From NCBI RefSeq assembly GCF_030811455.1, contig NZ_JAUSQU010000001.1:7936001-8000000 (forward strand): a stretch of 64,000 nt of DNA, in the 5' to 3' direction. Under the pieces are notes generated by a model. That model saw only the letters and a program-made list of their open reading frames with translations. It was not told where the DNA came from and searched no databases. Positions 3,851 through 27,712 of the stretch are shown here, piece after piece. A program made the position numbers and the translations under genes. Origin of the DNA: Streptosporangium lutulentum. Its GTDB lineage: Bacteria > Actinomycetota > Actinomycetes > Streptosporangiales > Streptosporangiaceae. Position 1 is the first letter of the stretch; each line of letters opens with the position of its first letter.

Positions 3851-3958
3851 ATCTCAGCTAAGCCCAGGACAGCGATGACAAGGGGTCAGGGCCTCGGTGA
3901 TTGCCACACCGAACCCCTTCCTGCATCCCGGCAATTTGATCAACCCGGGACCCGGGCG

Positions 3959-6718: not shown

Positions 6719-7744
6719 TTAAGCGGTTGACGCGAAACGGATGTTCTCCACGATCTGCGCCGGGAGTGCAGTAAGAGCAGTGACACTGCGAGGCGAGCTA
6801 AGAAACTCTAGGAGCCTTGCTGGTTGCTCGGGGGGACCGAGTGGGACCGGCTCGACGCGCCGCCATCCTCTCGCGGATGCGGTCTTGATGGCGGTGAGGT
6901 AGGTGGTGTCTTTCATCTTGCCCAGCGTCTTGGCGCGCATGAGCAGGGCGGCCAAAGAGACTTGCCACTGCTGCTTGAGCGCGAACAGTTTTGGCCAGTC
7001 GACGGTGCTCGGTAGGTGGTCGTAGATGTCGATTGCGGGCATGAGGAGAGCTGCCGCGAACTGGTGGGCCTGGGTCTCGACCTCTTTGACGCCCCATATC
7101 TGCTCGCCGTGGAGGATGAGATGGCCGAGTTCGTGGGCGCAGTCGAAACGCGAGCGGGCGCGGTCGTTTTTGTCGGTGCTCAGGACGACGACCGAATGGT
7201 CGGCGAAGGGCAGGGAGAAGGCGTCGACGTCCGTATTGCCGAGCGGCAGACGGATGACTGTGACCCCGTGTGCTTCAAGTAGTCCGACGACATTGGTCAG
7301 CGGTCCAGGCGGGACATCCCAGAGCGATCGAATGCGCGCGGCGGCCTGCTCTATCTCGTCGATTCCGGCGTCCAGCCCGCTCACGGGGATCGTTGGCACG
7401 TTGGTGGGGGGAAACAGGCCTGCTTGGGCAGCCTCGATGGCGAGGTCGTGGGCGACGTGTGCGATTGCTCGGGCGCGTCGTCGGTCGGCGATGGATGTCC
7501 GTCGCAGCGAGCGGAAGAAGCCCTCGTGGCTCTCCGTCATCGGCATGTGGAAGAACCCGAGGGGTACGGCGAGCAGTCGGCTCAGGATGGCGATCGTGTC
7601 GGGACTGGGGCGAGCCGCGCCGCTCTCGAATTGGCTGATCGCGGCAGGCGTGAGGCCTGCTTCGCCTGCCAGCTTCGCCTGGCTCCATTGCGCCAGTTCT
7701 CGGGCTGTGCGGAGGCGTATCCGGTCGAACGCCTGCGTGCTCAT
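6719..7744 (-). CDS. XRE-family HTH regulator with ImmA/IrrE metallopeptidase domain
   Basis: A 341-residue one-polypeptide fusion. The N-terminal helix-turn-helix is at about residues 10-65 (LAQWSQAKLAGEAGLTPAAI). The C-terminal ImmA/IrrE-type zinc protease has the gluzincin motif HELGH at 204-208. Proteins of this kind repress or derepress mobile elements and defence loci by cleaving a repressor, and some are antitoxins; which applies here is not visible. It is transcribed divergently from the CBASS operon, with about 200 bp between the ATGs at 7744 and 7942, so it is a good candidate for controlling CBASS. No partner gene in the same operon is evident. Confidence 0.85.
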   Translation of the reverse strand: MSTQAFDRIRLRTARELAQWSQAKLAGEAGLTPAAISQFESGAARPSPDTIAILSRLLAVPLGFFHMPMTESHEGFFRSLRRTSIADRRRARAIAHVAHDLAIEAAQAGLFPPTNVPTIPVSGLDAGIDEIEQAAARIRSLWDVPPGPLTNVVGLLEAHGVTVIRLPLGNTDVDAFSLPFADHSVVVLSTDKNDRARSRFDCAHELGHLILHGEQIWGVKEVETQAHQFAAALLMPAIDIYDHLPSTVDWPKLFALKQQWQVSLAALLMRAKTLGKMKDTTYLTAIKTASARGWRRVEPVPLGPPEQPARLLEFLSSPRSVTALTALPAQIVENIRFASTA

Positions 7745-7941: not shown

Positions 7942-8892
7942 ATGTTGACCGAGCGTTTCCAGATTCTGTCCCTGGACGGGGGAGGGTTCCGCGGCATGTT
8001 CTCCGCCGCGGTCCTGGCCCGCCTGGAGGAGGATCTCGGCACCCGGATCGTCGACCACTTCGATCTCATCGCGGGCACCTCCACCGGTGGGATCATCGCC
8101 CTGGGCCTAGGCTTGGGCCTGTCGCCCAAGGAGATCCTCGGCTTCTACACCGAGCACGGCCCGAGGATCTTCCGGGATCGCAGCCGGATGCGTGTCTTGC
8201 GGCATGTGATGCGGGCCAAGTACGGCTCTGAGCCACTGCGGACGGCCCTCGCGGAAGTCTTCGGTGACCGTACCTTCGGGGAGAGTACCAAGCGGCTGGT
8301 GATCCCCTCGTACAACATCGCCGCTGATGATGTTTACCTCTTCCGGACGCCGCACCTGTCGACCCTGAAGCGAGACTGGCGTGAAAGCGCGGTCAACGTC
8401 GCACTGGCCACCTCGGCCGCGCCCACCTACCTGCCAGGGATGCACCTAGACGGCGCCCGGCTCGTCGACGGAGGGGTGTGGGCGAACAACCCGACGATGG
8501 TCGCGCTGACCGAGGCGGTCGGGCCTCTCAACATTCCGCTGGAGAAAATCCGCGTGTTCAGCCTCGGCACCACGACCGATGTCCGCACCCGCCACCGCCG
8601 ACTCGACAAAGGCGGTCTCCTGCCCTGGGCGGGCGACGCCGTCGAAGTGCTCATGCGCGCGCAGAGCGAAAGCGCTGCCAAACAGGTACGGCATTTCGTC
8701 GGGAAGGACAACGTGCTCCGCCTCAACCCGACGGTCCCCACGCGCGCCTTAGCACTGGACAAGGTCGACATCGACACCCTGTACGGACTCGCTGGTCACG
8801 TCAGCCGTGACGCCTCGCCATCCGTCCACCGGACCTTCTGCGACCACCTCGCGCCAACGTTCAACCCTCACTACCCCGTACGAGAGGACTGA
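7942..8892 (+). CDS. capV: CBASS effector: patatin-like phospholipase (CapV-like)
   Basis: A 316-residue patatin-fold lipid hydrolase. Motifs seen: the oxyanion loop SLDGGGFRGM (residues 10-19), nucleophile elbow GTSTGG with Ser 47, and DGGVWANNP with the catalytic Asp 176. In CBASS such effectors are activated by a cyclic oligonucleotide from the neighbouring synthase and degrade membrane phospholipids, killing the infected cell before phage release. It is the first gene of a tight three-gene operon: one base separates its TGA from the ATG of the CD-NTase. The start is ATG 7942, downstream of a GGAGCGG-like sequence. Length and motif order match known CapV proteins. The cognate second messenger cannot be read from the effector. 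Confidence 0.9.
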   Translation: MLTERFQILSLDGGGFRGMFSAAVLARLEEDLGTRIVDHFDLIAGTSTGGIIALGLGLGLSPKEILGFYTEHGPRIFRDRSRMRVLRHVMRAKYGSEPLRTALAEVFGDRTFGESTKRLVIPSYNIAADDVYLFRTPHLSTLKRDWRESAVNVALATSAAPTYLPGMHLDGARLVDGGVWANNPTMVALTEAVGPLNIPLEKIRVFSLGTTTDVRTRHRRLDKGGLLPWAGDAVEVLMRAQSESAAKQVRHFVGKDNVLRLNPTVPTRALALDKVDIDTLYGLAGHVSRDASPSVHRTFCDHLAPTFNPHYPVRED

Positions 8893-8893
8893 C

Positions 8894-10066
8894 ATGACGT
8901 TGCTGACGCCGGAGACGAGCGCGGACACGCTCGCCGACATGCTGTCGATGCTGCTCGACGGGGCCGTGGAGGCACTCGATGTCGCCCCGGACCTGGAGAA
9001 AACGACCATCAACTGCTACGAGGAGGTAGGCGGCTGGCTTGCTGAGAACGGCAGCCCTGGCTGCCGAATCTACCCCCAGGGATCCTTTCGCCTCGGCACC
9101 GTCGTCCGGCCCGCTACAGAATCCGGCGAGTACGACATCGACCTCGTGTGCTGGCTGCCGCTGGCGAAGGAGAGCATCACCCAGGACGCTCTCAAGCAGC
9201 GAGTGGGCGCTCAACTACAGAGCTACATGGCCTGGAAGAACGCCCGGCGTGACACCGACGGTCCCAAGAGCCTCGAATCTCGCCGCCGCTGCTGGACGAT
9301 GGGCTACGAGGGATTCCACCTTGACGTCCTGCCGACCATCCCCGACGAGGAGCACCAGCCTGACGGGATCCTCCTTACAGACGAAAACTTCTGGAAGTGG
9401 CAGCACAGCAACCCCATCGGGTACGCGGACTGGTTCCGTGGGCGCTCTGAGCTGCTTCACGGTTTCGAAGCCAAGCGGCACCCCAGCGTCGCCAGCGTGC
9501 CCGCCTGGTCGGCTCGCACGCCGCTCCAGCGCGTCGTGCAGATCCTGAAGTGGCACTGCATGATCCTCTTCGAGGAGGACCCCGACAACCGTCCCCCGTC
9601 CATCCTCATCACCACCCTCGCCGCCCGCGCGTACACCGGCGAACGCGACCTCTTCACCGCTACGCGGATGGTGCTCGACCTCATGCCGAGCTTCATTGAG
9701 AACCGGGACGGCACGTGGTGGGTGCCCAACCCCGCGCACGAGGGTGAAAACTTCACAGACAAGTGGAAGGAGTATCCCGAGCGGAGGAAGGCGTTCTACA
9801 CCTGGCTCGAAGACATCAGGGCCGCCATGAACGACTTGGCTGGCATGGAGACCAAGGGGGTGCACGTCGTTTTCGCTCGCCTTGCCGAGGCTTTCGACCG
9901 CGACCCCATGCGCCACTCAATCAACCGGTATGCCGACCTCATGGGCAGTGCCTCCACGAAACTGCGGATGACTTCGACAGGCCTGCTCTCCGCTGCTCCC
10001 ACCGAGACCGGTCCGCGTAACAGTAGGCACACGTTCTATGGTCAGCACTCCGCGTCGCGCCATTAA
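8894..10066 (+). CDS. CBASS cyclic oligonucleotide synthase (CD-NTase)
   Basis: A 390-residue cGAS/DncV-like nucleotidyltransferase. The active site is visible as YPQGSFRLGT (GS motif), YDIDLVCWL (two metal-binding aspartates) and, further on, FHLDVLPTIP supplying the third. The C-terminal half is the helical lobe typical of the family. It senses infection and makes a cyclic di- or trinucleotide that activates the phospholipase encoded just upstream. Its C-terminus, ending GQHSASRH, overlaps the downstream E2-like gene by 29 bp. That matters because E2/Cap2-type proteins conjugate the CD-NTase through its C-terminus. Nucleotide specificity is not predictable by eye. The start is ATG 8894, with the preceding stop one base away. 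Confidence 0.92.
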   Translation: MTLLTPETSADTLADMLSMLLDGAVEALDVAPDLEKTTINCYEEVGGWLAENGSPGCRIYPQGSFRLGTVVRPATESGEYDIDLVCWLPLAKESITQDALKQRVGAQLQSYMAWKNARRDTDGPKSLESRRRCWTMGYEGFHLDVLPTIPDEEHQPDGILLTDENFWKWQHSNPIGYADWFRGRSELLHGFEAKRHPSVASVPAWSARTPLQRVVQILKWHCMILFEEDPDNRPPSILITTLAARAYTGERDLFTATRMVLDLMPSFIENRDGTWWVPNPAHEGENFTDKWKEYPERRKAFYTWLEDIRAAMNDLAGMETKGVHVVFARLAEAFDRDPMRHSINRYADLMGSASTKLRMTSTGLLSAAPTETGPRNSRHTFYGQHSASRH

Positions 10067-10478
10067 TCTCGGCCGGCAGTTGGCCGCGATCCAAGCGGTC
10101 CTGCCGCATGCGCAGGGGGTCGTACATCGCGGCCATCTGGTTTGTACCGTCACGCTTCAGCCCAACGTCCTCTGCCGCGTCTACACGGTGAAGGTCACTT
10201 ACCGACATCGAAGCAGCCCACGGGTGAGAGTCATTGACCCTCTCCTTGAACTGCATCCACGTGCTACGAGCCTCCCGCACGTGTACAGCGGGGGCGACCT
10301 ATGCCTTTACTTTCCAGGGGAGTGGACCGAAGACATGCTCCTGGCCAGGACGATCCTGCCGTGGACGTGTGAGTGGCTTCTGCACTACGAGCTGTGGCTG
10401 ATCACTGGGCGCTGGGCGGGCAGCGGTGAGGACCATACGGTGTCACCGGCCGACGAGGACGCTGAAAGTGAGAGATGA
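10038..10478 (+). CDS. E2-like protein of type II-short CBASS
   Basis: A 146-residue protein with the layout of bacterial E2-like domains: a beta-rich N-terminus, then LPHVYSGGDLCLYFP with a candidate catalytic Cys 89 and nearby His 81, then TILPWTCEWLLHYELWL and a GRWAGSGE tail. In short type II CBASS a lone E2-like protein, without the E1 and JAB partners, modifies or primes the CD-NTase. The gene overlaps the CD-NTase gene by 29 bp in another frame, indicating translational coupling. No E1, JAB or third-gene ancillary protein follows, which is what defines the short subtype. Assignment rests on motif pattern and operon position. Confidence 0.8.
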   Translation: MVSTPRRAINLGRQLAAIQAVLPHAQGVVHRGHLVCTVTLQPNVLCRVYTVKVTYRHRSSPRVRVIDPLLELHPRATSLPHVYSGGDLCLYFPGEWTEDMLLARTILPWTCEWLLHYELWLITGRWAGSGEDHTVSPADEDAESER

Positions 10479-10732: not shown

Positions 10733-12682
10733 GTGGATTTTTTCGGTCTGGGGTTGGCTCTGAAGGGGGCCCTGGGGCAACCCTCTACCTCCGGGTGCGC
10801 CTACCTGCTGCCGCGTATGTGTGCCAAACGGACTAGGGTTCCTATCGTGCCTAAGCGTCAACTACGGGAGTCTCTTAAGTATGTTCTCGCAATGCCGGGC
10901 TATCCCATGAATACCCCCGAGGAGCTCACGGGTGAGCGGCTATATATCGTTCGAGATCGGTCCGCGGACAGATGGGCGAAGATCGCTAACGTTTACCTTA
11001 TTGCTAGCGAGTATCTCAAACCTGCCGAGGAGGTGCGAGGCCGCACATACAATGGAACCGAGTGGCTGAACGCAATCTTGGCTCTATATCCGGTCGAAGA
11101 CTTCCTCTGCGCCTTGGCAGGCCTGAACCATGCTGTGTCTAATGCCTCTCGCGAGCCTGGGTTGGTTCAGAGATATAAGCAAATCTTCCTAGCTGCGCTT
11201 CCGGATGATATTGCGCATTCTGTGGTTAATGCTCTGGCTGATATCCCCGGCAGGCCGCGCAGGAGGCTCATTAGTCGGCAGGCAATTTTGCGTGCCATTC
11301 ATACGGTCCTATGCGCTAAGCCTGAGTCGCATGAAGGTGCTGTTGCGGATGCGGTAGCCGGGATAGATCTGTATGTCGCTGCAATTATCCTGGTTCATCT
11401 CGTTGCTGAGAATCTGGGAAATGAAAAACGTGCTGAGGGGGAGCCTCGCCTGGGTGGGCTATCTCAATCCCTGGCAATGGAAATGATCTCTAACCAACTG
11501 TTCAACGAGATCCCGGAAGCGGGAAGTCTGCTCGGTCGAAGCAGAATGTTGTGGACGCGGTATGAAGTGCAGGCTGCTGCGCGCCGTCCTCCTCTAGAAA
11601 TGATACAGGAGGCTCTTGGCGTAGAGTTTGACGACATCCTGGCTTTGGCATTTGCCTATTATTCAAAGATTATTTCGCACGAGCCTGGCGGCTCTGTGGG
11701 CATACATGCCTTTGAGGGTATCCCAGTTGATCGTGCCATTATCAATGTATTCTTGAGTCGTTTCGCAGTAAGTCCGGAGCAGCTCGCCGAGCAGTTGGGA
11801 AATGCGTCAGGGGCCTGGCAAATGATGCCTGTTCAGGATCGCCCTCTTCTGCTTCTTGGGGAGAATGTCGTTGTCCTGGATGAGACATTTCTCCTTGAGC
11901 GGGTTACGGAAGGACTCTATTGGCTCGTTCATGACTACGAGAAGCATAATCATGGGGAAAAGGCTCGATTGAAGTGGACCCAAGCCTATTCCAGGATGAT
12001 CGAATGTCACGTCGAAGGGGAACTTCGAGTCGTAGCGCCACCGCTTCTCGGTGGAGAGGCGAGCACCTTCTTCACCGAAGAGGACCTACAGAGAGCATTT
12101 CCCGGAAAGGCGTGCGATGTAGGCGTCGACTTTGGATCGTCGTGTCTTCTTGTTGAAATCGTGAGTGCGACCATGACGGTTGCTACACGAGAACACGGAG
12201 ACGTTGAGGCGTTCAAGAAGGACGCGGAGAAAATAGTTGTGAAGAAGGCGCGGCAGTTGTCGATTACCGCCGACAACCTCCTCTGTGCGCAGCAGCCAGA
12301 GAAATCCCCACTTCTTGTTGGGGCGCATAAGATTTATCCAGTTATTGTCCGGGGTGGTCATTTTCCGTTTAGTCCGATTACTCGCGATTACCTCTTCGAG
12401 GTGCTCGTCCAGGAGAACCTACTCACGCAAGCCGGTGTTCGTCCACTTTCCCTGCTAAGTCTGGAAGAACTTGAGGCGGCCGTCAGTCTATACTCCAATC
12501 GCGGTATCTCGCTTCCTGATCTTTTGGATTCCTGGCATACTTCCGAATATCGCCACACTAACTTTATGTTCTTCCTGGCGTCGAAGTTCGGGGGTGAAAA
12601 TATCGGGAGAGAGGAGAGCCTCGAAAACTCGGTAGCGGAGTTCAAATCTATGATCTTGAATCGACTGGGTGCTGGCGAATGA
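10733..12682 (+). CDS. Large unrecognised protein, candidate nuclease-type defence gene
   Basis: Up to 649 residues. The start is uncertain: ATG 10733, ATG 10817 or GTG 10847 (MPKRQLRESL), the last having an AGGG upstream. I do not recognise the family. Most of the protein looks alpha-helical. Around residues 459-480 there is CDVGVDFGSSCLLVEIVSA, a hydrophobic strand-Asp-strand-Glu pattern like the core of PD-(D/E)xK nucleases, though the expected Lys is replaced (EIV). Codon use is strikingly different from its neighbours, with many A/T-ending codons, and an A/T-rich leader precedes it at about 10655-10732. It was therefore acquired from a lower-GC source. It sits between CBASS and a HEPN gene, so defence is the natural guess, not a demonstrated role. 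Confidence 0.6.
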   Translation: MDFFGLGLALKGALGQPSTSGCAYLLPRMCAKRTRVPIVPKRQLRESLKYVLAMPGYPMNTPEELTGERLYIVRDRSADRWAKIANVYLIASEYLKPAEEVRGRTYNGTEWLNAILALYPVEDFLCALAGLNHAVSNASREPGLVQRYKQIFLAALPDDIAHSVVNALADIPGRPRRRLISRQAILRAIHTVLCAKPESHEGAVADAVAGIDLYVAAIILVHLVAENLGNEKRAEGEPRLGGLSQSLAMEMISNQLFNEIPEAGSLLGRSRMLWTRYEVQAAARRPPLEMIQEALGVEFDDILALAFAYYSKIISHEPGGSVGIHAFEGIPVDRAIINVFLSRFAVSPEQLAEQLGNASGAWQMMPVQDRPLLLLGENVVVLDETFLLERVTEGLYWLVHDYEKHNHGEKARLKWTQAYSRMIECHVEGELRVVAPPLLGGEASTFFTEEDLQRAFPGKACDVGVDFGSSCLLVEIVSATMTVATREHGDVEAFKKDAEKIVVKKARQLSITADNLLCAQQPEKSPLLVGAHKIYPVIVRGGHFPFSPITRDYLFEVLVQENLLTQAGVRPLSLLSLEELEAAVSLYSNRGISLPDLLDSWHTSEYRHTNFMFFLASKFGGENIGREESLENSVAEFKSMILNRLGAGE

Positions 12683-13033
12683 GGATCTCGAAGATCTCGG
12701 CTGTTCGCCTCTTGTTCGCTGACTGCTACGCCAACCAGGCTCGGTGAAAGAGAAAAATCGCGGCAATGACCAGAGCTGCCGTCGCCGATTCACCTGTCCT
12801 ATGATCCGCCTAGGATTTTCAACGAATCATCTATCTGTGGTTGGGAATCCTGTCCTAGCTGCTCTCTTGCCAGCCCTAAAGTACTGGAGAGACATGACTC
12901 TTTATCTGCATCTGCCGAACGACGCCGTCAAGTTGGATCATCTAAACGGTCTTCCGGGCACTGAGGTTTTGGCTGGCCCACCACATGGCCTTGACGACGT
13001 CCCAGCGACAAGGCACTGATCTGCGTACGGGAT
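12683..13033. other. Intergenic region, no gene seen
   Basis: Base composition returns to the G+C-rich norm across this interval. Short open frames exist on both strands, but none has consistent codon bias or recognisable sequence. Nothing structural was found. Confidence 0.5.
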
Positions 13034-13557
13034 ATGGGGACGTACGAGGCGGCCGGTTGCATTATTACCGAAATGGATTTCGCCACCTGGGCCCGTTCCG
13101 TCGACGATCATTCCGCGAATTTGCTCCTCTTGAACCGCCAAGCCGCCGAGAACCTTTGCCTGGAAACGGTGGAAAGGCGCCGGCCCTGGCAGTCTGGTCT
13201 GGAATTCGATGCCGAAGCCGCCGCCCACACCGACAACCTCATTCCCGTGGGACGGGCGAGCCGTAGCTGGATCGGGATCCGCATCGAACTGTTGCGCACG
13301 TACGCGCAGGTCCTTTGTAGTGAGCCGCAGGGCGTCCGATCTGATGGTCTGCTGACAGATGCTGGCGCACAGCGCGTTGCCGCAGCTGATCTCGACGCTG
13401 TGGCGAAGATCTGGAGGCATGGGCCGCGCACGACTGGGGCGCCATCATCGACCTCGGCGCGAAACGCCAGCATCTTGCCGGACCGCTTCCTCCCTTCCTC
13501 GGCACTGGGCCGGACGAGAACCGACCTGGGACGACAGGGCGCCGAGCACTTCGCTGA
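13034..13557 (+). pseudogene. Unknown ORF with probable frameshift
   Basis: From ATG 13034 the frame reads as a normal protein (EMDFATWARSVDDHSANLLL, later RIELLRTYAQVLC) with G/C-rich third positions until about 13405. There the sensible reading moves to another frame (DLEAWAAHDWGAIIDLGAKR) and stops at TGA 13555-13557. A single-base indel in the genome or in the assembly would join the two halves into a protein of about 174 residues. The family is not recognised. The opposite strand is also open but reads less naturally. Confidence 0.4.
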
Positions 13558-13614
13558 GCTGAACTCGGCGAGCGGTCGGCATCGTCAGGATATGGATGTG
13601 TTAAATGCTCGAAG

Positions 13615-15039
13615 ATGTTCCTTCCTCGGTACGCCTGGATGAAGAATGGTGCGGTGGCAGACGTGGAGAGCTTGATCGGCCAGGTATGGGGTCCGGACGT
13701 TCGACCACTGGTCGAGGAGGCGTGGCGCTGCTACAACGCCGGCGCGATTCGCGCCTGCATCACCACGACGTGGAGCGCCGTTACCGCCGACATCATCACC
13801 AAGCTCGTACGGCTGGCTGATGACGGCGACGGCCAGGCCGCCTCGTTCCGCACCGCTCTGTCCGAGGCCCAGAAGAAAGGGCTGAGCAAGGACGGGGTGC
13901 GAGCCATGCAGGCCATCGAGGCGAGCCTGCTGGACAAGGCCGTGGAGTTCGAGCTCATCGACTCGATCGGGTCACGTGAGCTGGAGCGTATCCGCGAGGA
14001 TCGCAACCTATGCGCGCATCCTTCGCTGCGCACGCTCGGGGACGTCTACGAGCCTCGCCCAGAAGTCGCCCGTGGCCACCTGGCCGTCGCACTGGCGACC
14101 CTGCTCACCCATCCTCCAACGCAGGGCCGCAAGGTTGTCGAGGAGTTCAGCACCTACATCTGCGACCCGTTCTTCGTGCCTACGTATCCGCACATGCAGG
14201 CCACCTTCTTCGACCGGGTCCGAACCGCGACTCGCAAAACCATCGTCAGTTTCGCCGCTAAGCATGCCCTGCTCGAACTCGATCCCGAGGGGCGCCTGCC
14301 TGCCGCTGAACATTCCGACAGGATGGCTTTGGCCCTGATCGCCTTCGCGCAGCGGGACCGAGAGCTGGTCCGCTCGGCCATTTCCGCCCAAAGCGAGAGG
14401 TTCCAGGTGCTCGAAGGTGCCGCCCAGCTGCGCGCCTCGGTGCGGTTGGGAGACCAGGACTTCTTCTGGAGCATGGTGGACCAGGCACTGGCCACACGGC
14501 TTCAGGAGATGGTGGCCAAGTTGTCCACCACCGTCGAGTGGGAGTCGCTTCCCCCTGCGACGGCTGCTGCGATTGCCCTGGTTCGGAGCCCGTACGCGCG
14601 CGAACGGTTGTCAGTACTGGAAACGCGGTTCACCGAGCTGTCCTGGACCCATCGCCTCGGGGTAGCCACCATGCATCCCGACCCGTACTTTGTGTCGGCG
14701 GTGGTCCAATTCATCGACGAAGCTGGCAGTTGGCGTATGGGTGAGCAGGCTGGGCGGATACTCGTCCAACACGCTCCTTTCCTGACCATCGAGACCTTGC
14801 GAGAAGCCTTGAACGGCTGGTGGGAAAACTCAGAGTGCCGGACCGCGGCAGACATGCCGAACCTCGCCGTACTCCTCTTCCACGGCACATCACACCTCGG
14901 TCCCCAACGCGCCCCCGTGTTCGGCGAGTTCCTGACCAACGTTCGAGCGCTGGAAGGCGAAGGTGAGTACTACAGCTACCCGGCGCTGGAAGAAGCTCTG
15001 AGTCGGTCGGGATACAACCCTTCAGCGGCTGGTAGATGA
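13615..15039 (+). CDS. Protein with HEPN-type RxxxxH motif
   Basis: A 474-residue protein of unrecognised family. Residues about 30-140 form a helical region ending in IREDRNLCAHPSL, which carries R130-N-L-C-A-H135. This is the RN-x(3)-H pattern of HEPN ribonucleases, preceded by the acidic/polar helix (WRCYNAGAIRACITTTWSAV) commonly paired with it. The remainder is a long all-alpha region without known motifs, possibly a sensor or scaffold. HEPN proteins act as RNases in toxin-antitoxin, abortive infection and CRISPR ancillary roles. No small MNT-type antitoxin gene is adjacent, so this is not a standard HEPN/MNT pair. The start is unclear: ATG 13615 or ATG 13639. Confidence 0.62.
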   Translation: MFLPRYAWMKNGAVADVESLIGQVWGPDVRPLVEEAWRCYNAGAIRACITTTWSAVTADIITKLVRLADDGDGQAASFRTALSEAQKKGLSKDGVRAMQAIEASLLDKAVEFELIDSIGSRELERIREDRNLCAHPSLRTLGDVYEPRPEVARGHLAVALATLLTHPPTQGRKVVEEFSTYICDPFFVPTYPHMQATFFDRVRTATRKTIVSFAAKHALLELDPEGRLPAAEHSDRMALALIAFAQRDRELVRSAISAQSERFQVLEGAAQLRASVRLGDQDFFWSMVDQALATRLQEMVAKLSTTVEWESLPPATAAAIALVRSPYARERLSVLETRFTELSWTHRLGVATMHPDPYFVSAVVQFIDEAGSWRMGEQAGRILVQHAPFLTIETLREALNGWWENSECRTAADMPNLAVLLFHGTSHLGPQRAPVFGEFLTNVRALEGEGEYYSYPALEEALSRSGYNPSAAGR

Positions 15040-18066: not shown

Positions 18067-18120
18067 TCTTCAGCAGGCGGCTTCCGCTGCGCCTGGGGCA
18101 GGAGCAGTAGGGCGGGTGGG

Positions 18121-18444: not shown

Positions 18445-21381
18445 TTAGAGATCCTCCTCCTCAATGGAGAAGGTGACGCCAGGCAGCAGTTTCGCCTTGG
18501 ACAAGAGCGAACTGGTATCCCTCGTCCGGGCCGTCACGGTGATCTCCAACCCGAGCATCTGGAGATCGACAGTCGCCCTTGCCGGGTCGACGAGAGAGGC
18601 GAGTTCGCGGATGAGCCCCCACACGGCTTCGCGTTTCGCATCGTTGGTAAGCGACGACAGCGGCATCCTGACTTTCGTCACCTCGTAGGTCGTCGCTTCA
18701 GTCTCTGCCTGCGATGAAGGGACAGGATTTGCACCTGCGTATCCGCCGGTCAGCTTGCTCACGCCCTGACTCGACCCACCACCGCGTCCAGATACTGGAA
18801 TGAGGGACGTGGATGAAAGTTGGGGCGACAGCACCGGACGTGGGCGGAGCAATTGCTGCATCGATGCGGGCTGAATCTGGCTGGGGCTGGCGGGGCGAAT
18901 CTCATTGCCGTCGCTGTCGGTCAGCATCCATTCGGCACCGGTAGCCAGGTGAAACAAAGCCTGGCGCAGGTCATCGACGGTGGCAACCAGCGGCCAGGTG
19001 GGATCGCTGTATGGGAGGGCGAAAAGCTCTATAGGGGTGAGGTCACGTCCGAAGGCCCCGCGGCCGATCAGCTGGCTGACGTACTCGGGCGCCAGCGCTC
19101 CAGCTGCGACGGCGCGACCGACCGCGACAAGTTCGTTCCACACCTCCTGCCCTAACAGGGCGCTCCTACCGTCGGGCATCGTTTTGTACTGCACCGTCAG
19201 ACCGTCAGAGGTGCGAAGTAGGTAGGCGTAGTGCTGGTAGGCCCACTTAACATCAGTATCGAGTTTGGTCCGGGCCTCGTCCCTGCGTGCGCAAGCCTCG
19301 GGATACTCATCAGCGACAGGATCGAGTTGGGCGACAACGGTCTCCCAAGCGAGCAGGTCCCGGGCCCGATCGCGTGCGCGAGTGCGGCGCTGTGTGTTCA
19401 CCATGGCGACCACCATGGATGCCGCGTAGGTGGCGCTGAGCCCAGGCGTGACACCGAACGCCATGTTGAGGTCGACGCGGGTATCAGCATCGCGGCCGTT
19501 GAGCAGGCTCCACCGGCGTGGGTCGAGCACGACAAGACGGTTCTCCTGACCGTCAAACCCGGAGAAGCATCCGGCAGCGGAGGTATCGCTCCCGACGGAC
19601 CCTTCCGCGAAATGCGGCCCGCTAAAGGCTCCCTTACTGGCCAACCGCTGGGCGCGCTTCCACACACGGTCCAGCGCCAGATCATTGCTAACCATGGCTG
19701 TGGCGTTGGCGTGGTACATGTTCAGCGTCTGCTTGATGGAGAGGTAGAAACGTTCTGGTCCTTTGCCCGTGGCTGGGCGTGCTCGTTCCAAGGCTCCCAG
19801 GCCACCTTGGACGGGACTGGCGGTGAGAGCGTTGAAGACTTCTTCAGCAGTCGCGTACTGCACGTCCTGGCCGGCGATGGCAGCTATCAGCTCGGGCTTG
19901 GTTGCTCCACGGGCAGCTTGGGCCCGAGGAACCAGGCTGTAGGCAAAGCACGCGGTTGCCATCCGTACGGCGGGTGCTGGTTGGCCGGCCGACACGCCGT
20001 TGACGGCGAGCGCGGAGTCCATGATGAAGGCTGTGCCGCCACCTCCGCCGGAGCGGACGATGTCAGTGTTGGCCACCGCGCGGAATCCTTGTATGGCGCG
20101 GGCGCTGCCAGCCAGTACACCGGACGACAACAGGGCCTCTAAAGCGTTGGTGTGCAGAGGGATGTCTCCAGGACCGATCAGATCGGGTGCCCATCGTCCC
20201 GCTTCATGCTCGATCGCCCAGTGTAGGACTGTGCGCGCGAAGATATCGACGGTGGAACGAACCTGCTGGAAGGCTTGGACGACCGACCATTCTTTGGCGA
20301 TCAACTCGAAGAGGTCAGGGTGGAAGGGGTAAGTCTCGGCGGTCCGGTCGGGGAGGCTGGTAAGCGTACGGGCCGAACCGAGCTTGCTGTATACCTCCTT
20401 GGACCAAGTTTCATCAGCGGCGATAACGTAGGCGGTGCCGATCCTTCGGGCGGCTGCGTCTTCGATGTCGTTGGCGAACAGACGACGGCGGATGATCTGA
20501 GCGAAGTCGGCAGGCTCAGTAACCGTGACGGTTTCGCCGTTACGTCGCAGCCGAGTTGCGATGTACTCTCGGATTTCTTCGGCAGCCACAGGGTAGCCAG
20601 CTTGGTCCTTGTCGCTGCGAATCATCACCACGATCAGTGCGACGTGCGGTTGGTCATCGACAGCGTCGGCAAGAGCGTTGAGGAAAGCTTGTTCTCCAGG
20701 CAGACCGCCGATGGCATCCTGGTCATTCAACATCATCACGTAGTCCATGAGCTCATCGATGACTACCAGCACAGGGCGATCGATCTCAGCGAATGCAGCC
20801 TGCAGAGTTGCCTTGTTAGCGCCGAGGGAAACGTAGTGTTGCCAGCGGCTCATACGGTCTGGGTGGCTATGGAATAACAGCCACAGGAACCGCCCGAACA
20901 GGTCTGTGGCCGGTCCGAATCGAGGATCGGTTTTTCCTGGGGACATCGAATCACCGATGAGAATGATCGGGGCGACCGCGCTGAGATCCAGTTCATGTCC
21001 GCCTGCGGTGGCTTCGGCAGCGACAGCAAGCCCGAGCTCAGTGGCGAGGAACAGTCCAGTGTCGTTGATCATATGCCAGATACCGACGAGTGCATGGCTT
21101 TTACCTCCGCCCATGCCCTGGTCGAGGTGGAAACATGCCTTGGCCTCGACACCCGCCACCCAGAGCCGACGAGCGACCCGTCCTAGAAAGCCGACCAGCA
21201 ACGGAGTGGGCTGAGTGATGTCGGTGTAATAGCCACACTTGGCGTAAGGGACCGGAACGGTCTGGTAGACAGCCTTAGCCAGGCTCATCTGCAGTTCGCC
21301 CACCGACCCGTCAGTGCGGCGGACTTCGTCACGGAGGTTGAGGACATTGGCCCAATGGGCGCCGTGAGCGGGTTCGGTCAC
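18445..21381 (-). CDS. DUF499-type ATPase, third gene of Hma-like defence operon
   Basis: A 978-residue AAA-like ATPase. Residues 86-100 carry the P-loop LDQGMGGGKSHAL typical of DUF499/COG1483 proteins, and further on there are VLVVIDELMDYV (Walker B-like) and IVVMIRSDKD. Members accompany DUF1156 methylases and SNF2-type helicases in phage-defence operons. Here the order helicase, methylase, ATPase matches the Helicase-Methylase-ATPase (Hma) system. The ATG at 21381 overlaps the methylase stop in an ATGA, so the genes are translationally coupled. The likely role is an NTP-driven module that loads or controls the methylase or helicase on foreign DNA, which is inference. The reading frame is intact and close to full length for the family. 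Confidence 0.85.
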   Translation of the reverse strand: MTEPAHGAHWANVLNLRDEVRRTDGSVGELQMSLAKAVYQTVPVPYAKCGYYTDITQPTPLLVGFLGRVARRLWVAGVEAKACFHLDQGMGGGKSHALVGIWHMINDTGLFLATELGLAVAAEATAGGHELDLSAVAPIILIGDSMSPGKTDPRFGPATDLFGRFLWLLFHSHPDRMSRWQHYVSLGANKATLQAAFAEIDRPVLVVIDELMDYVMMLNDQDAIGGLPGEQAFLNALADAVDDQPHVALIVVMIRSDKDQAGYPVAAEEIREYIATRLRRNGETVTVTEPADFAQIIRRRLFANDIEDAAARRIGTAYVIAADETWSKEVYSKLGSARTLTSLPDRTAETYPFHPDLFELIAKEWSVVQAFQQVRSTVDIFARTVLHWAIEHEAGRWAPDLIGPGDIPLHTNALEALLSSGVLAGSARAIQGFRAVANTDIVRSGGGGGTAFIMDSALAVNGVSAGQPAPAVRMATACFAYSLVPRAQAARGATKPELIAAIAGQDVQYATAEEVFNALTASPVQGGLGALERARPATGKGPERFYLSIKQTLNMYHANATAMVSNDLALDRVWKRAQRLASKGAFSGPHFAEGSVGSDTSAAGCFSGFDGQENRLVVLDPRRWSLLNGRDADTRVDLNMAFGVTPGLSATYAASMVVAMVNTQRRTRARDRARDLLAWETVVAQLDPVADEYPEACARRDEARTKLDTDVKWAYQHYAYLLRTSDGLTVQYKTMPDGRSALLGQEVWNELVAVGRAVAAGALAPEYVSQLIGRGAFGRDLTPIELFALPYSDPTWPLVATVDDLRQALFHLATGAEWMLTDSDGNEIRPASPSQIQPASMQQLLRPRPVLSPQLSSTSLIPVSGRGGGSSQGVSKLTGGYAGANPVPSSQAETEATTYEVTKVRMPLSSLTNDAKREAVWGLIRELASLVDPARATVDLQMLGLEITVTARTRDTSSLLSKAKLLPGVTFSIEEEDL

Positions 21382-24242
21382 GAGGTCTCCTCGAACAAGC
21401 TGAGGGGGGTGGCCGCTACATGGGTGGTGCCGCTAGACACGGCAATGGCTTGGATGGACGCGCGGTTGCGCTTCACTGCAGCCAAGGCGACTCTGACTGG
21501 GTCAGAGGCAGGAAGTTTGGTGGCCAGCCAATCGACCAGCGCCCATACCTGTGCATCGGTCGGGGAGCGTTCTGCGGAGGTGAGACATGCGGCGGCGGCA
21601 ACCGTTCCCTCAGGCCACCTCGCCGCCATTCCGCGAACGACCTCATAGGTGCTGGAAGTGGAAAAGAGCTGGCCGGGGGCGTCGTGGCGGAGCCGGTATC
21701 CGGCCTTGGTCTCGATCAAGATGGGACCGCGTAGGTCCTCTATTCGCAACGCGTCGGATTGGGCGAAGAAACGGGCTTCTCCCTTGGGGACATCCATGCG
21801 GCCATGGACTTCATGCCAGAAGATTGCCAGCCGGGTGTGTGGGTCGAAGATCTCCAGTGGCGATTCGTCTAGTCGCAGGGCGACGGCATCACGGACGGCG
21901 CGGCGGGCCAGGGTCATGTAGTGCTCCAGGGACACGGCGGTCCCATCTGGCGTAATGACTTTGCTATAGCGACCCACTACCTGAAGGGCCGCCCCGTAGG
22001 AGGCCATGAGTTGGTCTTCGAGAGCTAGCCCATCGCCATCCCAGGTGCGGCAGCGGGTCTTAACTTGGTTGATCACCTCGGCATCGACCTGTGCTGCGAT
22101 ACCAATGGGTCGGTTGGGTGGGGCGACCCGCGCCCCTATGGAAACGGTCACGGAGATGGTCGCGACACCGGTGACGGCCGTCTCGGTGCGCGAGGGCCAA
22201 GACGAGGTGACCACGAAGCCGGCATTCGTCAGGGCGGCCAGCAGTCGTTTCCAGGCTTGGGGATCGGAGTGACCGAAGATGACGGTCATGTGCCCGTTAG
22301 CCTTAAGTACGCGCCGGGCTTCTGCAAAGGAGCGGGCCAACATGGACTCGTAGAAGTCCTGCGTGCGGTGATCACCGTTTGCCTTGGCTCCGCGTTTGAC
22401 GATGATCTCTTCGCTCTTGTCCTGTAGTCCGTCCGTGCCATCGAGTGCGCCATCGAAGAGATCCTTGAGAGCCCCCCGCAGCGCGCGCTTGAACCAGGCG
22501 TAGGACAGATCTGAGGAATCAGCGTAAGCGATCATGTCGTAGTAGGGCGGATCGGTCACGATCACATCGATTGTAGCGTCGCGAAATGGTAGTGCCACCG
22601 AGGAAGCACGGCGCAAGCGGGCAGGGGGTGACTCGAATGTGTTCTCGAGCAGCACTTTGCGAAGCGCGTTCAGCAAACTGGAGGAGACTGAACTCCAAGT
22701 TCCCGGTCCGGCGCCCGGTCCTACTTCGAGGTAGTCAAACGCATGCGTAACGGTGCTCTGGTTGGTGAAGACGTCACCTGAATAGACACGATTCTGCGCT
22801 GACCCATCAGGCCTTCCACGACTTTCTTTACGCGAGCCGCGGGTCGCCCGGCGTAGTTGCCGAGCAATGTTGGAGGCGGCATATGAACACAGAGCGGCGG
22901 CGTACTCTGGGCTCACCGCTTCGCGCAGCTCATGATGCAGTTCAGCGATGATTTTCGCAGTGGTGGCGAACAATATCGTTTGCCGAGGGTTCATCAACGA
23001 CCCATAGGTCGTGTAACCGTAGCCACTTGCGCGGACGTTGTCCTTGTTTCCGCGAGGGATCGCCTCATCGGGGAAGGGAGACAGCCCAGCGATGGTAGAT
23101 AGGGCCGATAGATCTGCACGTGCAGCAGCAGCGCTCTCGTCTGGCCGGGGCACCCGGAATTCTTTGCGGTTCGTGTTGGGGTCGATCTCGGCTACGGCCA
23201 GCATCGCGTCGATGTACTGACCAGCGAATCCTTTCGCTTTGACCACGTCCAAGGTGTGAACGTGGCCGCAATTAGGGAACGGGCACCGTGCGGATTTGCC
23301 TTGCTTTCCGACAGGCGCAGAGAATGTTGGCTGTTGTTGTGGAAGGCCGTCCTTGACGTGCGGGAGCCAGTGATCGCCATCTACAATCAGCTCAAGGGCT
23401 TGTCCTTCATCCCTAGTGCGGTTGTAAGGGTTCCGCAAGACCATCGAGCCGATCAAGGGAAACCGACGGCTGCAGCCGTCGCAGGGAATGGTGACAGCCC
23501 ACAGATACGCCCACGGCACCTGGCCACCCAGAGCGGCGTTTCCAGGGTAGTGGGCGGTCATCTGTTTAGCGACGCGGCGACCTACCTCAGATAGAACAGT
23601 CCGCACATCACCGAGTAAGCGTGGCTCTCCTGCCAGACCTGCGAGTCCCAGCTGACCGGTTGTGGCCGACTTTCGCCGTTTACTGTTCGGTGAGGCGGCT
23701 TCTTTTTCCTCCCTGGCAAATTCAGTTGCGGGAGAATAAGGTAGCGGGGGTTCAGCGGACCAATCACGTAGAGGGTAATCGGCCAGCAGTCGACCAGCGA
23801 GGGTTGCGACGGGGGAGAGGTCAATGCCGATGGCTGTGGCCCCGGCGCGGGTTGCCTCTAGCGAGATGATCCCTCGGCCAGAGTAGATATCGAGCACAAC
23901 GGGTGGCTTGGCCCCATACTGCTCGGCGATGCGACTGCGCAGGCGCAGCATCGCGGCCTTCTCGCCCTTGAGGACAGCCGCTTGTATGTCGAAACGATTC
24001 TCCAGGGTGTCCGGCAGAAGCGAGCACAACACGGCAGCACGTGCCTGTGCGATGGGCCGGGAGGCAAACCAGGTGAACAGCGCCTTCTCGCTGAGACCTG
24101 ATCCGGCAGGAGTGCCGACTGCTTTGTCCACCTCAGGGCAGGGAAACCAGGTGTCGATCAGGCGAGCAGGTGTCGCAGTCTGATCGGTCAAGCCACCGGT
24201 GGCGCTACTTTCGGCAGCGGTGACGGTCGGCGAGGTGCTCAT
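21378..24242 (-). CDS. DUF1156 DNA adenine methyltransferase, second gene of Hma-like operon
   Basis: A 954-residue N6-adenine methylase of the COG1743/DUF1156 type. Visible parts are an N-terminal DUF1156-like segment (CPEVDKAVGT, FTWFASRPIAQARAAVLCS), the SAM-binding region VLDIYSGRGIISLEATRAG, a zinc-ribbon pair (CDGCSRRFPLIG and CPFPNCGHVH) and the catalytic motif VTDPPYYD near residue 564. It is predicted to mark host DNA so that the partner helicase and ATPase act only on unmodified DNA. I chose ATG 24242 because it forms an ATGA overlap with the helicase stop; the open frame continues upstream, inside the helicase. The DUF499 ATPase gene follows with another ATGA overlap. Confidence 0.88.
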   Translation of the reverse strand: MSTSPTVTAAESSATGGLTDQTATPARLIDTWFPCPEVDKAVGTPAGSGLSEKALFTWFASRPIAQARAAVLCSLLPDTLENRFDIQAAVLKGEKAAMLRLRSRIAEQYGAKPPVVLDIYSGRGIISLEATRAGATAIGIDLSPVATLAGRLLADYPLRDWSAEPPLPYSPATEFAREEKEAASPNSKRRKSATTGQLGLAGLAGEPRLLGDVRTVLSEVGRRVAKQMTAHYPGNAALGGQVPWAYLWAVTIPCDGCSRRFPLIGSMVLRNPYNRTRDEGQALELIVDGDHWLPHVKDGLPQQQPTFSAPVGKQGKSARCPFPNCGHVHTLDVVKAKGFAGQYIDAMLAVAEIDPNTNRKEFRVPRPDESAAAARADLSALSTIAGLSPFPDEAIPRGNKDNVRASGYGYTTYGSLMNPRQTILFATTAKIIAELHHELREAVSPEYAAALCSYAASNIARQLRRATRGSRKESRGRPDGSAQNRVYSGDVFTNQSTVTHAFDYLEVGPGAGPGTWSSVSSSLLNALRKVLLENTFESPPARLRRASSVALPFRDATIDVIVTDPPYYDMIAYADSSDLSYAWFKRALRGALKDLFDGALDGTDGLQDKSEEIIVKRGAKANGDHRTQDFYESMLARSFAEARRVLKANGHMTVIFGHSDPQAWKRLLAALTNAGFVVTSSWPSRTETAVTGVATISVTVSIGARVAPPNRPIGIAAQVDAEVINQVKTRCRTWDGDGLALEDQLMASYGAALQVVGRYSKVITPDGTAVSLEHYMTLARRAVRDAVALRLDESPLEIFDPHTRLAIFWHEVHGRMDVPKGEARFFAQSDALRIEDLRGPILIETKAGYRLRHDAPGQLFSTSSTYEVVRGMAARWPEGTVAAAACLTSAERSPTDAQVWALVDWLATKLPASDPVRVALAAVKRNRASIQAIAVSSGTTHVAATPLSLFEETS

Positions 24243-27200
24243 GCCTGGGCTCCGATCAGTCGCTTGAGCTCTGACAGGGGGATTTGGAAGCGTTCGATAC
24301 GTCGCGGGCCACCGAGCACCGCGGCGGGATCTTGCTGACGGAGCCGGACAGCGGGCTTGGTGACGCAGGAGTCGACCACGTATAGCCAGTACTCGCTGCC
24401 GCGCTGCTGAGCTTGGGCCCATTCGTTCTGCTCCAGCCATACCGCGCGCAGCGGTCCTTGCACTCCCTTGACTTCGACCAGGCGCTGCTCACGGGTGGCG
24501 CGGTGCCGCGCGTAGAGGTCGTAACCGAGGCCGGCAGTCTGCCTGTCGTCGACCTCGTAGCCGCGCCGTTCCAGTTCGGAGACGACCACAGAGATCGCGA
24601 CCTTCTCGGAGTCTGGGTCATAACCCAGTTGATCCACGCGGGCGCCGCCAGTAACCGCGATCCAGCCGACCAGTCGTACGGCGCTGCTGTTGACCTGGGC
24701 GATGTCTTCCAGTACAGCCAAGCGCTGGTCCTTGGCGACCGTGAATTGCCTCAGCAACTGGGTGCGGTCGAGGAGTGGTCGGTCGGCGATGGATTCCTCG
24801 AACCGGTATTGCGTAGCGTCCAGTTGCTGCCTGGCGGCTTTGATCCACGCTTGACGCTCGACGGCTAAGGCAGCAACCTGGGTGCGCAATTCGGTCTTGG
24901 CTGCTTCAGTGGCATCGTGGCGGGTAGCTGGCGACAACGAGGTGGGCCCTGCCGGTGGTGGGTCATTCGGATCCGGACTGCGCAAGGTCAGAAGCGATTC
25001 CCACGCCACGGGTAGGGCCTGACCAGCCGAGCAGCGGATGAGCAGCGGGGCCTTACGTGTGGCGCGTGTGGCACCGTCATGGAGCTGGATGTCAGCGTCG
25101 AACAGGGCCAGCACATACGAGGTGAGTGCAGCGCTGTCGACGAGGGCTGCGCCGCGGACCAGGTCTTCCTCTCCTGTGGAGAGTGCGTGCGCGATGAGCT
25201 GCTGAAAGGGATCCTCGGTCGGCCCCAGGACGATAACGTCGTCCAGCCCAGTCGCGCCATCATTGATTGCTTGGCGCACCGAGGCGCCGTCAGCTGCGAT
25301 GTACGCGTGGCTGCCCCCGCCAAGCGACTCGGGAAGCTTCCCCTTGTCGGCGACGGTGAGCCGGCGGATTCCCTTTGCCGGGCCTGGCCCGATGTTCCAA
25401 CTGCAACTGCGGGCAAGCTGGTCGACCATCGCGTCGACGATGACCGGATTGATCGCCTCCAGTCGGTCAGCGGCGAAACGCTCCAACGCGTCGCCAGTCT
25501 TGGCCGGCGTGCTCAGCGAACGTTCATCGGCGACCAGGACGCGAGCGGTCTCGATGAGCGCGGCGGCTTCGGGGATGGTGACATGCCGTCCGCTCTGGGC
25601 GTCGACCATCGCCTTCCCCCAGTCGAAGCCAGCGCTGAAAGAAGTGGCGTCTAGTAGGTCATACAGCTTCCCCTCTAGCGCTTCGGCTGCGCTTTCGAGG
25701 TTGTTCAACATGACCTCCTGGACGCGGCCCTCGCGGGTGTGCGGGGCGACCAGGTGGTAGACGTGGACCGGGTTGCGCTGGCCGACCCGGTGCAGGCGTC
25801 CCATCCGCTGTTCGAGGCGCACCATCGACCAGGGCAGGTCCCAATCGACCATGACGTGAGCCGATTGCAGGTCGATGCCTTCCCCGCCCGCGTCTGTGGA
25901 CACCAGGACTTGGAATTGTCCGGCAAGGAAGCGCTCCTGGAGTGAGTCCCGGCTACGGTGGTCGACGGCACCTTCCAGAATGTCGGCGCTGAAGCCCGCC
26001 GCAGTAAATCGTGCGAGTAACCATCGGGCGGTGTCCGCGAATTCGGTGAATACCAGCAATTGTCCGTACTTGTGGCGGATGTTGTGCTGGTCGAGCAGCG
26101 TTAGGAGTGCCTGCCATTTGGCCGGGGAGGCTGCCTCTTCGGCCTGGCGCAGCGTCTCCAGGACGGTGGCGACACGAGAAAGTTCAGCGCTCTTGTCGCG
26201 TGTTCTGGAGGTGACGAGAGCGCTTTCTGCGCGTGCCCAGGTGTCGTCGTCGTCGGCAGCTGCTCCTAAGCCGTCAGCTGTGAGGAGATCATCGGGTACT
26301 ACGACGGTACTGCGTTCGTGCGCGGCACCCTTAAGGGCGGCCTCGCGGCGACGAATCGTCTGCGTGACGGCGTACAAGCTGGATGCCGCCCGCTTGCCAT
26401 AGATGGAGCGGGCCAGGGTGGCGTTGTCAGCATAGAAGGCGTCGACGTAGTCCATTACGGCGTCGTAGGCCACTTCCTCGTACGGGTTGAGACGGACGGG
26501 TATCGTCTTGGAGAAGCGGCGGGGGAAGAGCTGGTTGCCGTCGTGGTCGACCAGATCCTCTTTCATCCGTCGTAGAAAAGACAGCTTGCTGGGTACTAGC
26601 GCGATGTCGTAGTCGCTCTGGCGCGGCTCCCACGGGTACAGCGTCGGATCCAGCAAATTCATCAGGCCGCGAAAATAGTGTTCCTTGCCGCGATGAGGGG
26701 TGGCGGTGAGCAGCAGCAGGTGATGAGTCCTCGCCGCCGCCTCACGTGCTGCAGCAAGGAGTTGGCTGGTGGGGGTCAGACGGTGCGCCTCGTCAAAGAC
26801 GATCAAGGACCAGGAGGCGCGGTGCCCAGCCACCTTGCGGCGCACATCTGGGTTGTGAGTGAACAGGTCGACTGAGATCAGCCAGGTGCCGTAGCGGGGG
26901 TCGAGATCCGCAGGGTCGGCGGCGATCTCGGTGGTGATCCGACGGGCCTCCACGCCGAACAACCGCTGCAGGTCTCGCTCCCATTTGATAACCAGGTGCG
27001 CTGGCACGATGATCAATGATCGGCCCTGTATGAGTCCTTGCCGTCGCCCCTCGGTGAGATACATCCCCGCCATGATCGTTTTTCCGGTCCCGGGCTCATC
27101 GGCCAACAGGAACCGCAGGCGGGGCTGGCCAAGCATGTGCCCGTGGACGGCTTCGTCCTGGTGAGCGTACGGGCGCAGTGGACGGGTGGCCAGGACGGCT

Positions 27201-27463
27201 GATCGGATACGCGGAAGCGCGTGCTGCATCCATCGTCCCCATAGGGCCGTCAGCGCGCGTTCGGGATGGCCGCCGCGGTCATTAGTGGGGACAAGTCCCT
27301 TGACTAATTGCTGTTCAGATAATAAGAGGCGTCGCGGCTGGCCCTCGGCGTCGATAACGAAGAGTTCGATCGAACCGTCTCCAGCCCAGTCGGCATCCCT
27401 TACCGTTACCAGCGCGCCGTCAACGCGTACCTGTCGCCCTCTCGCGGGCAGTTCACTCGTCAT
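24239..27463 (-). CDS. SNF2-type helicase with DUF3883 domain, first gene of Hma-like operon
   Basis: A 1074-residue superfamily 2 helicase. Walker A is ADEPGTGKTIMAG (about 121-133), motif II is VFDEAHRL with DEAH at 224-227, and motifs V/VI are STDAGGEGIDLQ and RLEQRMGRLHRVGQ. The C-terminus has a DUF3883-like nuclease-fold domain, GYDLYARHRATREQRLVEVK, where the E-V-K triad fits the PD-(D/E)xK core. This suggests that DNA translocation and cleavage reside in one protein. The ATG at 27463 is preceded by AAGGA five bases away and leads a tightly coupled three-gene operon. DISARM DrmD is related, but drmA, drmB and drmC are absent, so Hma is the better match. Confidence 0.88.
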   Translation of the reverse strand: MTSELPARGRQVRVDGALVTVRDADWAGDGSIELFVIDAEGQPRRLLLSEQQLVKGLVPTNDRGGHPERALTALWGRWMQHALPRIRSAVLATRPLRPYAHQDEAVHGHMLGQPRLRFLLADEPGTGKTIMAGMYLTEGRRQGLIQGRSLIIVPAHLVIKWERDLQRLFGVEARRITTEIAADPADLDPRYGTWLISVDLFTHNPDVRRKVAGHRASWSLIVFDEAHRLTPTSQLLAAAREAAARTHHLLLLTATPHRGKEHYFRGLMNLLDPTLYPWEPRQSDYDIALVPSKLSFLRRMKEDLVDHDGNQLFPRRFSKTIPVRLNPYEEVAYDAVMDYVDAFYADNATLARSIYGKRAASSLYAVTQTIRRREAALKGAAHERSTVVVPDDLLTADGLGAAADDDDTWARAESALVTSRTRDKSAELSRVATVLETLRQAEEAASPAKWQALLTLLDQHNIRHKYGQLLVFTEFADTARWLLARFTAAGFSADILEGAVDHRSRDSLQERFLAGQFQVLVSTDAGGEGIDLQSAHVMVDWDLPWSMVRLEQRMGRLHRVGQRNPVHVYHLVAPHTREGRVQEVMLNNLESAAEALEGKLYDLLDATSFSAGFDWGKAMVDAQSGRHVTIPEAAALIETARVLVADERSLSTPAKTGDALERFAADRLEAINPVIVDAMVDQLARSCSWNIGPGPAKGIRRLTVADKGKLPESLGGGSHAYIAADGASVRQAINDGATGLDDVIVLGPTEDPFQQLIAHALSTGEEDLVRGAALVDSAALTSYVLALFDADIQLHDGATRATRKAPLLIRCSAGQALPVAWESLLTLRSPDPNDPPPAGPTSLSPATRHDATEAAKTELRTQVAALAVERQAWIKAARQQLDATQYRFEESIADRPLLDRTQLLRQFTVAKDQRLAVLEDIAQVNSSAVRLVGWIAVTGGARVDQLGYDPDSEKVAISVVVSELERRGYEVDDRQTAGLGYDLYARHRATREQRLVEVKGVQGPLRAVWLEQNEWAQAQQRGSEYWLYVVDSCVTKPAVRLRQQDPAAVLGGPRRIERFQIPLSELKRLIGAQA

Positions 27464-27712
27464 CGCTTCCTTGTGCAAGCCTGCGAGTGCAGCACAAACA
27501 GGGGCCGCAGCGTAGTCCGTACGGCCACCCATGGGATCGGCCAAGGCTCTCGGTCCGGACGCATGCTCCACCTACAAAACGAGAAGATGAAAGGCAAAAA
27601 TAAATCCATCCAAAGATGTCGATCAATACAGGAGCGGCATTCAGAGATCGAATTGTTGTACTCCCGGGCAGACGTGTATCGGCAGGGAAGGAAAAGACAT
27701 GAAATGTCCCGA

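Follow-up and report, generated by a model that had tools for sequence, protein, structure and literature searches.

Background

The closest described relatives of the gene analysed here belong to the GapS1 (GAPS1) family, to which a role against phages is attributed on three grounds: the name of the family, a conference report concerning Klebsiella pneumoniae, and the work of Mahata et al. 2024, which is said to support GAPS1 as an anti-phage protein. Searches of the open-licence papers in PubMed Central yielded nothing on the mechanism of GapS1. A passage of the conference report states that the GAPS1 of K. pneumoniae protects against many phages (PMC12908700), and one section of a phage-annotation paper names a GAPS1-like protein in the Klebsiella phage ST437-OXA245phi4.1 (PMC12774648). 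This protein, gp49 (L031, 516 amino acids), scores 393 bits with the NCBIfam GapS1 model (NF047931), whose curated cut-off is 320 bits, and its gene lies next to the integrase of a P2-like Klebsiella prophage. The prophage that carries gp49 also encodes gp35 (L031:26579-27658), which is weakly related to GapS4b (NCBIfam E 6.8e-6; 25.1 bits vs a cut-off of 300).

The segment spanning motifs II and III in GapS1 has the textbook form of the PD-(D/E)xK nucleases, VDFLI...IDAKG. Departures from this form are on record: passages of one paper describe how in the PD-(D/E)xK families DUF506, DUF790 and DUF1626 the motif III lysine is missing (often replaced by threonine in DUF1626) and one or more positive residues stand in the helix that comes behind the third strand, so that a positive residue has been relocated from motif III to motif IV (PMC1913061). 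Here we compare with these systems a gene from Streptosporangium lutulentum, found in a 64,000-nucleotide stretch of DNA that was analysed as a whole and is called the window below.

Results and discussion

A compositionally foreign gene in a block of defence genes

The longest open reading frame at this locus (10733-12682, +) starts with GTG, has no internal stops and encodes 649 residues. We prefer a second GTG at position 10847, which gives a gene at 10847..12682 (+) and a product of 611 residues, as the likely true start, because the closest relative found, a protein of Streptomyces sp. NRRL F-525 (L029, 51% identity), begins at the equivalent place. The similarity to this Streptomyces protein, along with two further relatives of 40% identity recovered by a single-protein search of genomes of the same order, indicates that the frame is a real gene, and since the complete relatives examined span 558-650 residues, it is no fragment.

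The gene stands apart in composition, as had been noticed from the letters alone. Its GC content is 53% and its GC3 is 0.54, as against 0.66-0.90 in the other 21 genes tested. When codon usage was compared with a hand-picked reference of seven host-like genes, it showed the largest divergence among the 22 genes (0.475 nats/codon), followed by the short E2-like CBASS gene (0.342 nats/codon).

Upstream lie CBASS genes coding for a phospholipase, a CD-NTase and an E2-like protein (7942..10478, +; recognised with PADLOC and NCBIfam), which we presume to be of type II and treat as neighbours outside the system. Downstream is a PD-T7-3-like gene (13615..15039, +; PADLOC E 5.8e-20 over residues 18-179), followed on the opposite strand by an Hma-like block of three genes encoding a DUF499 ATPase, a DUF1156 methylase and an SNF2 helicase (18445..27571, -; PADLOC E-values of 5e-25 for HmaC, 2.3e-38 for HmaB and 1.2e-87 for HmaA); these too are neighbours only. 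The locus had been placed between CBASS and a HEPN gene: the former is indeed upstream, but for the gene at 13615-15039 Pfam gave no HEPN match.

Relationship to GapS1 and to a plasmid-borne sister clade

The preliminary description recognised no family for the product and regarded it as an orphan of an undescribed kind. Pfam and PADLOC indeed gave no family match, and PHROGs gave only two matches (E 0.28 and 0.35), which we took as noise; NCBIfam, however, returned a single sub-threshold match to GapS1 (NF047931), with E 1.4e-3 for the 649-residue form and 17.8 bits (E 1.2e-3) for the 611-residue form. When the same model was compared with the 16 window-type proteins, counting the window protein, that make up our profile A2, it matched 10 of them with a best E-value of 1.9e-10, all far under the cut-off. 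Comparison of A2 with a profile of five GapS1 proteins using hhalign gave a colinear match (97.9%, E 3.7e-13) over 405 aligned columns with the motifs in register; it covers columns 71-494 of the 528 in the GapS1 profile, the first 70 remaining unaligned. A smaller profile of six proteins (A1) gave nearly the same result against the same five (97.8%, E 1.2e-12). Judged by these profiles, the gene product is a distant relative of GapS1, homologous over most of its conserved length, and the notion of an orphan of a new kind does not stand.

The two share, over about 400 colinear columns, the same order of a motif I Glu, a motif II Asp, a motif III acidic residue and a motif IV Gln, and both are found on mobile elements. 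They differ in that the window protein is actinobacterial, shows 11-13% identity to GapS1 in the profile alignments, is longer (611 vs 516 residues in L031), scores 17.8 bits where the model demands 320, and lacks the motif III lysine. For alignment, six more GapS1 members were taken from plasmids and phages, with 4 of the 5 and 3 of the 17 listed records being fetched.

Search with A2 also recovered a protein (L043) from the same order as the window genome, which led to a sister clade of 20 plasmid records from Streptomyces, Kitasatospora, Rhodococcus and Arthrobacter; four of the 20 are annotated as nuclease-related domain-containing protein. An aligned set of seven members (L043 and L048-L053, six of the 20 plasmid records having been fetched) is colinear by profile with the window clade (99.2%) and with GapS1 (98.1%). 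In Pfam, three of the seven are matched by NERD, a nuclease-related domain (best 2.1e-4), and there are further weak matches to DUF4143 (three of seven, best 0.002) and NICE-3 (one of seven, 0.0012). Members of this clade have the same motifs as the window clade, but they are 472-510 residues long, carry a canonical (D/E)xK in 7/7 and have no lysine three positions before the motif IV Gln.

Predicted structure

An AlphaFold model of the full-length protein has a mean pLDDT of 57.8. The N-terminal region (10847..11953, +; residues 1-369) is predicted to be mainly helical, with low confidence: blocks of residues 1-370 mostly have pLDDT values of 35-63, and this half of the model is unreliable, whereas the part from about residue 380 to 570 is mostly good. 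In a Foldseek search with the full-length model the first five ranks went to Nt.BspD6I (best E 0.015, TM not above 0.17), the remainder being noise. Therefore the C-terminal domain (11954..12529, +; about residues 370-561) was modelled alone, which gave a pLDDT of 84.2 and a pTM of 0.81, with helices at domain residues 2-27 and 84-110 and strands at 39-41, 56-59, 63-70 and 126-133.

In the PDB, chains of one nicking endonuclease, Nt.BspD6I, fill the first eight ranks for this domain (E 4e-3 to 2e-2, prob 0.72-0.99, 13-16% identity); the next seven include Can2, XPF, R.BspD6I2 and Cdn1, with unrelated folds interspersed from rank 11 onwards. The top match, PDB 2ewf, combines an E-value of 4e-3 and a prob of 0.99 with a TM of 0.36 on the query and an identity of 14%. 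Nt.BspD6I belongs to the PD-(D/E)xK nuclease superfamily and is a sequence-specific nickase of the restriction type. No match with E < 0.001 was obtained with the full-length model against the PDB or with the domain against the PDB and the viral models of BFVD, and the BFVD matches listed include some named endonucleases, many unnamed proteins and some other proteins. Sequence searches of the PDB gave nothing useful. Taken together, motifs, model and Foldseek matches suggest a PD-(D/E)xK nuclease-like fold for the C-terminal domain, and neither AlphaFold nor Foldseek pointed to a metabolic fold for the gene product.

The predicted active site and a candidate relocated lysine

To locate the motifs we used an alignment of 36 proteins: 22 of the window clade, seven GapS1 proteins and seven of the sister clade. 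Duplicates (L002-L005, L007, L009, L010, L038-L041, L044 and L045) were counted once, L001 and L011 being the window itself; L046 and L047 were kept out of the alignment, and the rows for L020 and L023 are short or incomplete. Motif I (12002..12004, +) is Glu386, or Glu424 in the 649-residue numbering, and is Glu in 35/36 and Gln in 1/36. Motif II (12116..12118, +) is Asp424 (Asp462 in the longer form), an Asp in 36/36. Motif III (12155..12163, +) reads Glu437-Ile-Val439; its acidic residue, Glu or Asp, is kept in 36/36, but the lysine of the canonical D-x-K or E-x-K of GapS1 is absent, its place being taken by Val439. In the full-length model Asp424 directly precedes strand 425-428 and Glu437 lies within the next strand, 432-439, so that the motif II Asp and the motif III acidic residue, conserved throughout the alignment, occupy the neighbouring strands expected of a PD-(D/E)xK fold. 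The segment CDVGVDFGSS...LVEIVSA, singled out in the preliminary description as resembling a PD-(D/E)xK core, is thereby upheld and given its place in the domain.

A lysine stands at the +2 position of motif III in all seven GapS1 proteins and all seven sister-clade proteins but in none of the 22 of the window clade, where the site is occupied by V, T, N or L. The motif IV helix (12245..12256, +) contains the candidate relocated catalytic lysine, Lys467, and the invariant Gln470 (36/36). Lysine at this position, -3 from the Gln, is found in 19/22 proteins of the window clade and in 0/14 of the other two clades. The three exceptions, L025-L027 from Microbispora and two Streptomyces, have Glu at -3 and threonine in motif III. 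The presence of a lysine somewhere in the helix of motif IV is unremarkable, since lysine at -4 occurs across all three groups (5/7 in GapS1, 1/7 in the sister clade and 7/22 in the window clade). In a phylogenetic tree a branch (97/93) separates the 22 window-clade proteins from the rest, and each of the other groups likewise sits on a single branch; reconstructed on this tree, the lysine swap is one event. Hence the row counts lend the correlation no statistical weight, and the Fisher p of 1.8e-7 for the swap is not used as evidence.

By description, the window clade resembles DUF506, DUF790 and DUF1626 in lacking the motif III lysine and in having a positive residue in the helix that follows the third strand; it is unlike DUF506 in that the relocated residue there is an arginine and not a lysine (PMC1913061). 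The core had earlier been termed degenerate. The motif III lysine is indeed missing, but the term is probably too simple, as the loss in motif III goes together with a conserved lysine in motif IV. The three retained acids and the Gln argue for nuclease activity and the lost lysine argues against it.

Genome G335 encodes a very divergent member (L042, 515 residues) with an E-x-L motif III and a lysine at -3 in motif IV; the protein ends soon after the core, and a search for its relatives on plasmids found none.

Distribution and genomic surroundings of the relatives

Relatives are sporadic. A single-protein search detected them in 5 of 345 genomes of the same order, the window's own included, and the A2 profile in 6 of 342; four genomes are common to both, and one matched in the first search (G339) is absent from the matches of the second. 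The A1 search of a 396-genome sample of the phylum returned only the window's own match. No relatives were recovered by a single-protein scan of genome contigs or by scans of viral contigs with A3, A4 and A6, and a search of phages with protein P0001 found nothing. The GapS1 model had no match in 246 genomes of the phylum (own included), a result that is uninformative since 14 controls were silent too. A further scan of genome contigs yielded six loci: three genes already known, two near-identical Streptomyces loci and L029. On plasmids one record was found directly and 18 were found with the Pseudarthrobacter protein of that record as query, 15 of the 18 being from Rhodococcus; 13 of these records were fetched.

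We surveyed the flanks of 20 loci among the 21 other aligned members of the window clade, setting L042 aside. Flank lengths varied from almost zero to 12 kb, and the neighbours of 10 proteins were scanned with PADLOC, the rest being judged from annotation or by eye. Seven of the 20 have an evident defence gene nearby and at the other 13 none was recognised with confidence, a raw count without a null expectation. The homologues are thus not consistently found in non-defence contexts. The neighbours comprise Lamassu genes at L026 (LmuA 5.3e-51, LmuB 1.8e-111) and, by eye, the same genes at L027, the two being near-identical chromosomal members and not independent loci; SIR2 and a weak ThsA (2.1e-9) at L020; Shedu, a restriction endonuclease and AbiEi/AbiEii at L021; PDC-S58 (2.4e-17) and an ApeA-like gene at L022; the SIR2 gene PDC-S65 (1.3e-187) and Ppl (8.9e-65) at L023; and a methylase with a helicase at L006. 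Plasmids carry 13 of these 20 loci, a share that owes something to the inclusion of a plasmid collection in the searches.

Using tblastn, we also compared ten neighbours from the window, the CBASS genes among them, with 430,665 bases drawn from 28 homologue loci, 27 of them distinct. Some of these loci have short flanks, and the set leaves out L042 and the sister clade. The only match was a helicase in L014; no CBASS gene, and hence no cyclase, was found near any of the 27 distinct loci, which indicates that the GapS1-like gene travels without CBASS.

Proposed function and alternative explanations

The reading that we favour, with moderate confidence, is that the gene product is a GapS1-type effector against phages that acts alone, as a single protein. 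Its N-terminal helical region of about 370 residues, presumably the recognition or regulatory part, would sense or bind the invader, and its C-terminal PD-(D/E)xK domain, presumably metal-dependent, would cut nucleic acid. The metal would be bound by Glu386, Asp424 and Glu437, and Lys467, in the helix that follows, may stand in for the missing motif III lysine. The profile homology to GapS1, the nuclease-like fold of the model, the motifs, the sporadic occurrence and the mobile or defence surroundings of part of the relatives are the observations from which we infer the anti-phage activity, the catalysis and its substrate, the role of Lys467 and the sensing by the N-terminal region. The preliminary description had likewise seen here a foreign gene in a defence block and a plausible stand-alone effector, and the lack of CBASS near the 27 distinct relatives is in keeping with that view.

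It might instead be supposed that the fold has been kept and catalysis lost, leaving a nucleic-acid-binding or scaffold domain as in RecC, for which an inactivated nuclease-like domain is described (PMC1185551). The absence of the motif III lysine in 22/22 members, three of which also lack the motif IV lysine, would fit such an outcome, but all 22 have kept, over long branches, the Glu of motif I, the Asp of motif II, the Glu or Asp of motif III and the Gln of motif IV. Such conservation is difficult to account for unless the domain catalyses or binds metal, and we consider lost catalysis rather unlikely. Service to a mobile element, as in plasmid competition, exclusion or maintenance, in place of cellular defence against phages appears less probable still. 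It is suggested by the many relatives on actinobacterial plasmids (18 records, and 20 in the sister clade) and by the proximity of some to relaxase, partition or replication genes; since plasmids often carry defence genes, the two roles may overlap. Against it speak the two near-identical chromosomal members L026 and L027 with their Lamassu genes, the company of CBASS, PD-T7-3-like and Hma-like genes in the window, and the anti-phage effect reported for GAPS1 in the conference passage (PMC12908700).

The position of the gene on the same strand as the CBASS operon, 368 bp downstream of the E2-like gene, could make it an accessory of that operon. We rejected this very improbable role on account of the 27 distinct homologue loci without a CBASS gene, and the composition of the gene is also sharply unlike that of the CBASS phospholipase and cyclase. 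Scarcely credible is a chance fold match, in which a different protein would display an accidental pattern of D and E residues: the Foldseek E-values above 0.001 and the 13-16% identity of the best eight matches would allow for it, but the profile homology to GapS1 with its canonical D-x-K, and that to the sister clade with its weak NERD matches, were both found independently of the fold search.

Beyond the single gene, we tentatively propose that an actinobacterial clade of GapS1-like anti-phage nucleases, carried on plasmids and in defence islands, uses a catalytic lysine that has been relocated out of the third strand into the helix behind it, and that L025-L027 then swapped this lysine for glutamate, with either a changed mechanism or an inactive sensor as the result. 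None of the libraries scanned names the window clade, and among open-licence PubMed Central papers we found none on actinobacterial relatives of GapS1. GapS1 and the two actinobacterial clades would make up a superfamily whose active site can be located and whose catalytic residues are directly testable, and the relocation of the lysine would allow two layouts of the active site to be compared within one defence family. It is also apparent that Pfam and PADLOC miss such a gene even within a block of defence genes.

Other features of the window

Between the GapS1-like and the PD-T7-3-like gene (12802-13640, +) the coding signal is seemingly broken over several frames, like that of a decayed gene. 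A protein encoded at 6719-7744 (-), transcribed away from the CBASS genes, unites an HTH domain with an M78/IrrE-like peptidase domain (PADLOC E-values of 1.5e-83 for RmrA, 1.1e-16 for CapP and 2.6e-10 for CapH) and presumably resembles a fused regulator of the CapH-CapP type. The stretch with the CBASS, GapS1-like and PD-T7-3-like genes is bracketed by direct repeats at 3663-4524 and 17840-18365 (252 bp at 97.6%; 182 columns at 76.4%), and recombination between them could mobilise or remove it as a unit. Finally, three genes at 40301-46451 (+), judged by eye from their first residues, resemble a type I restriction-modification operon.
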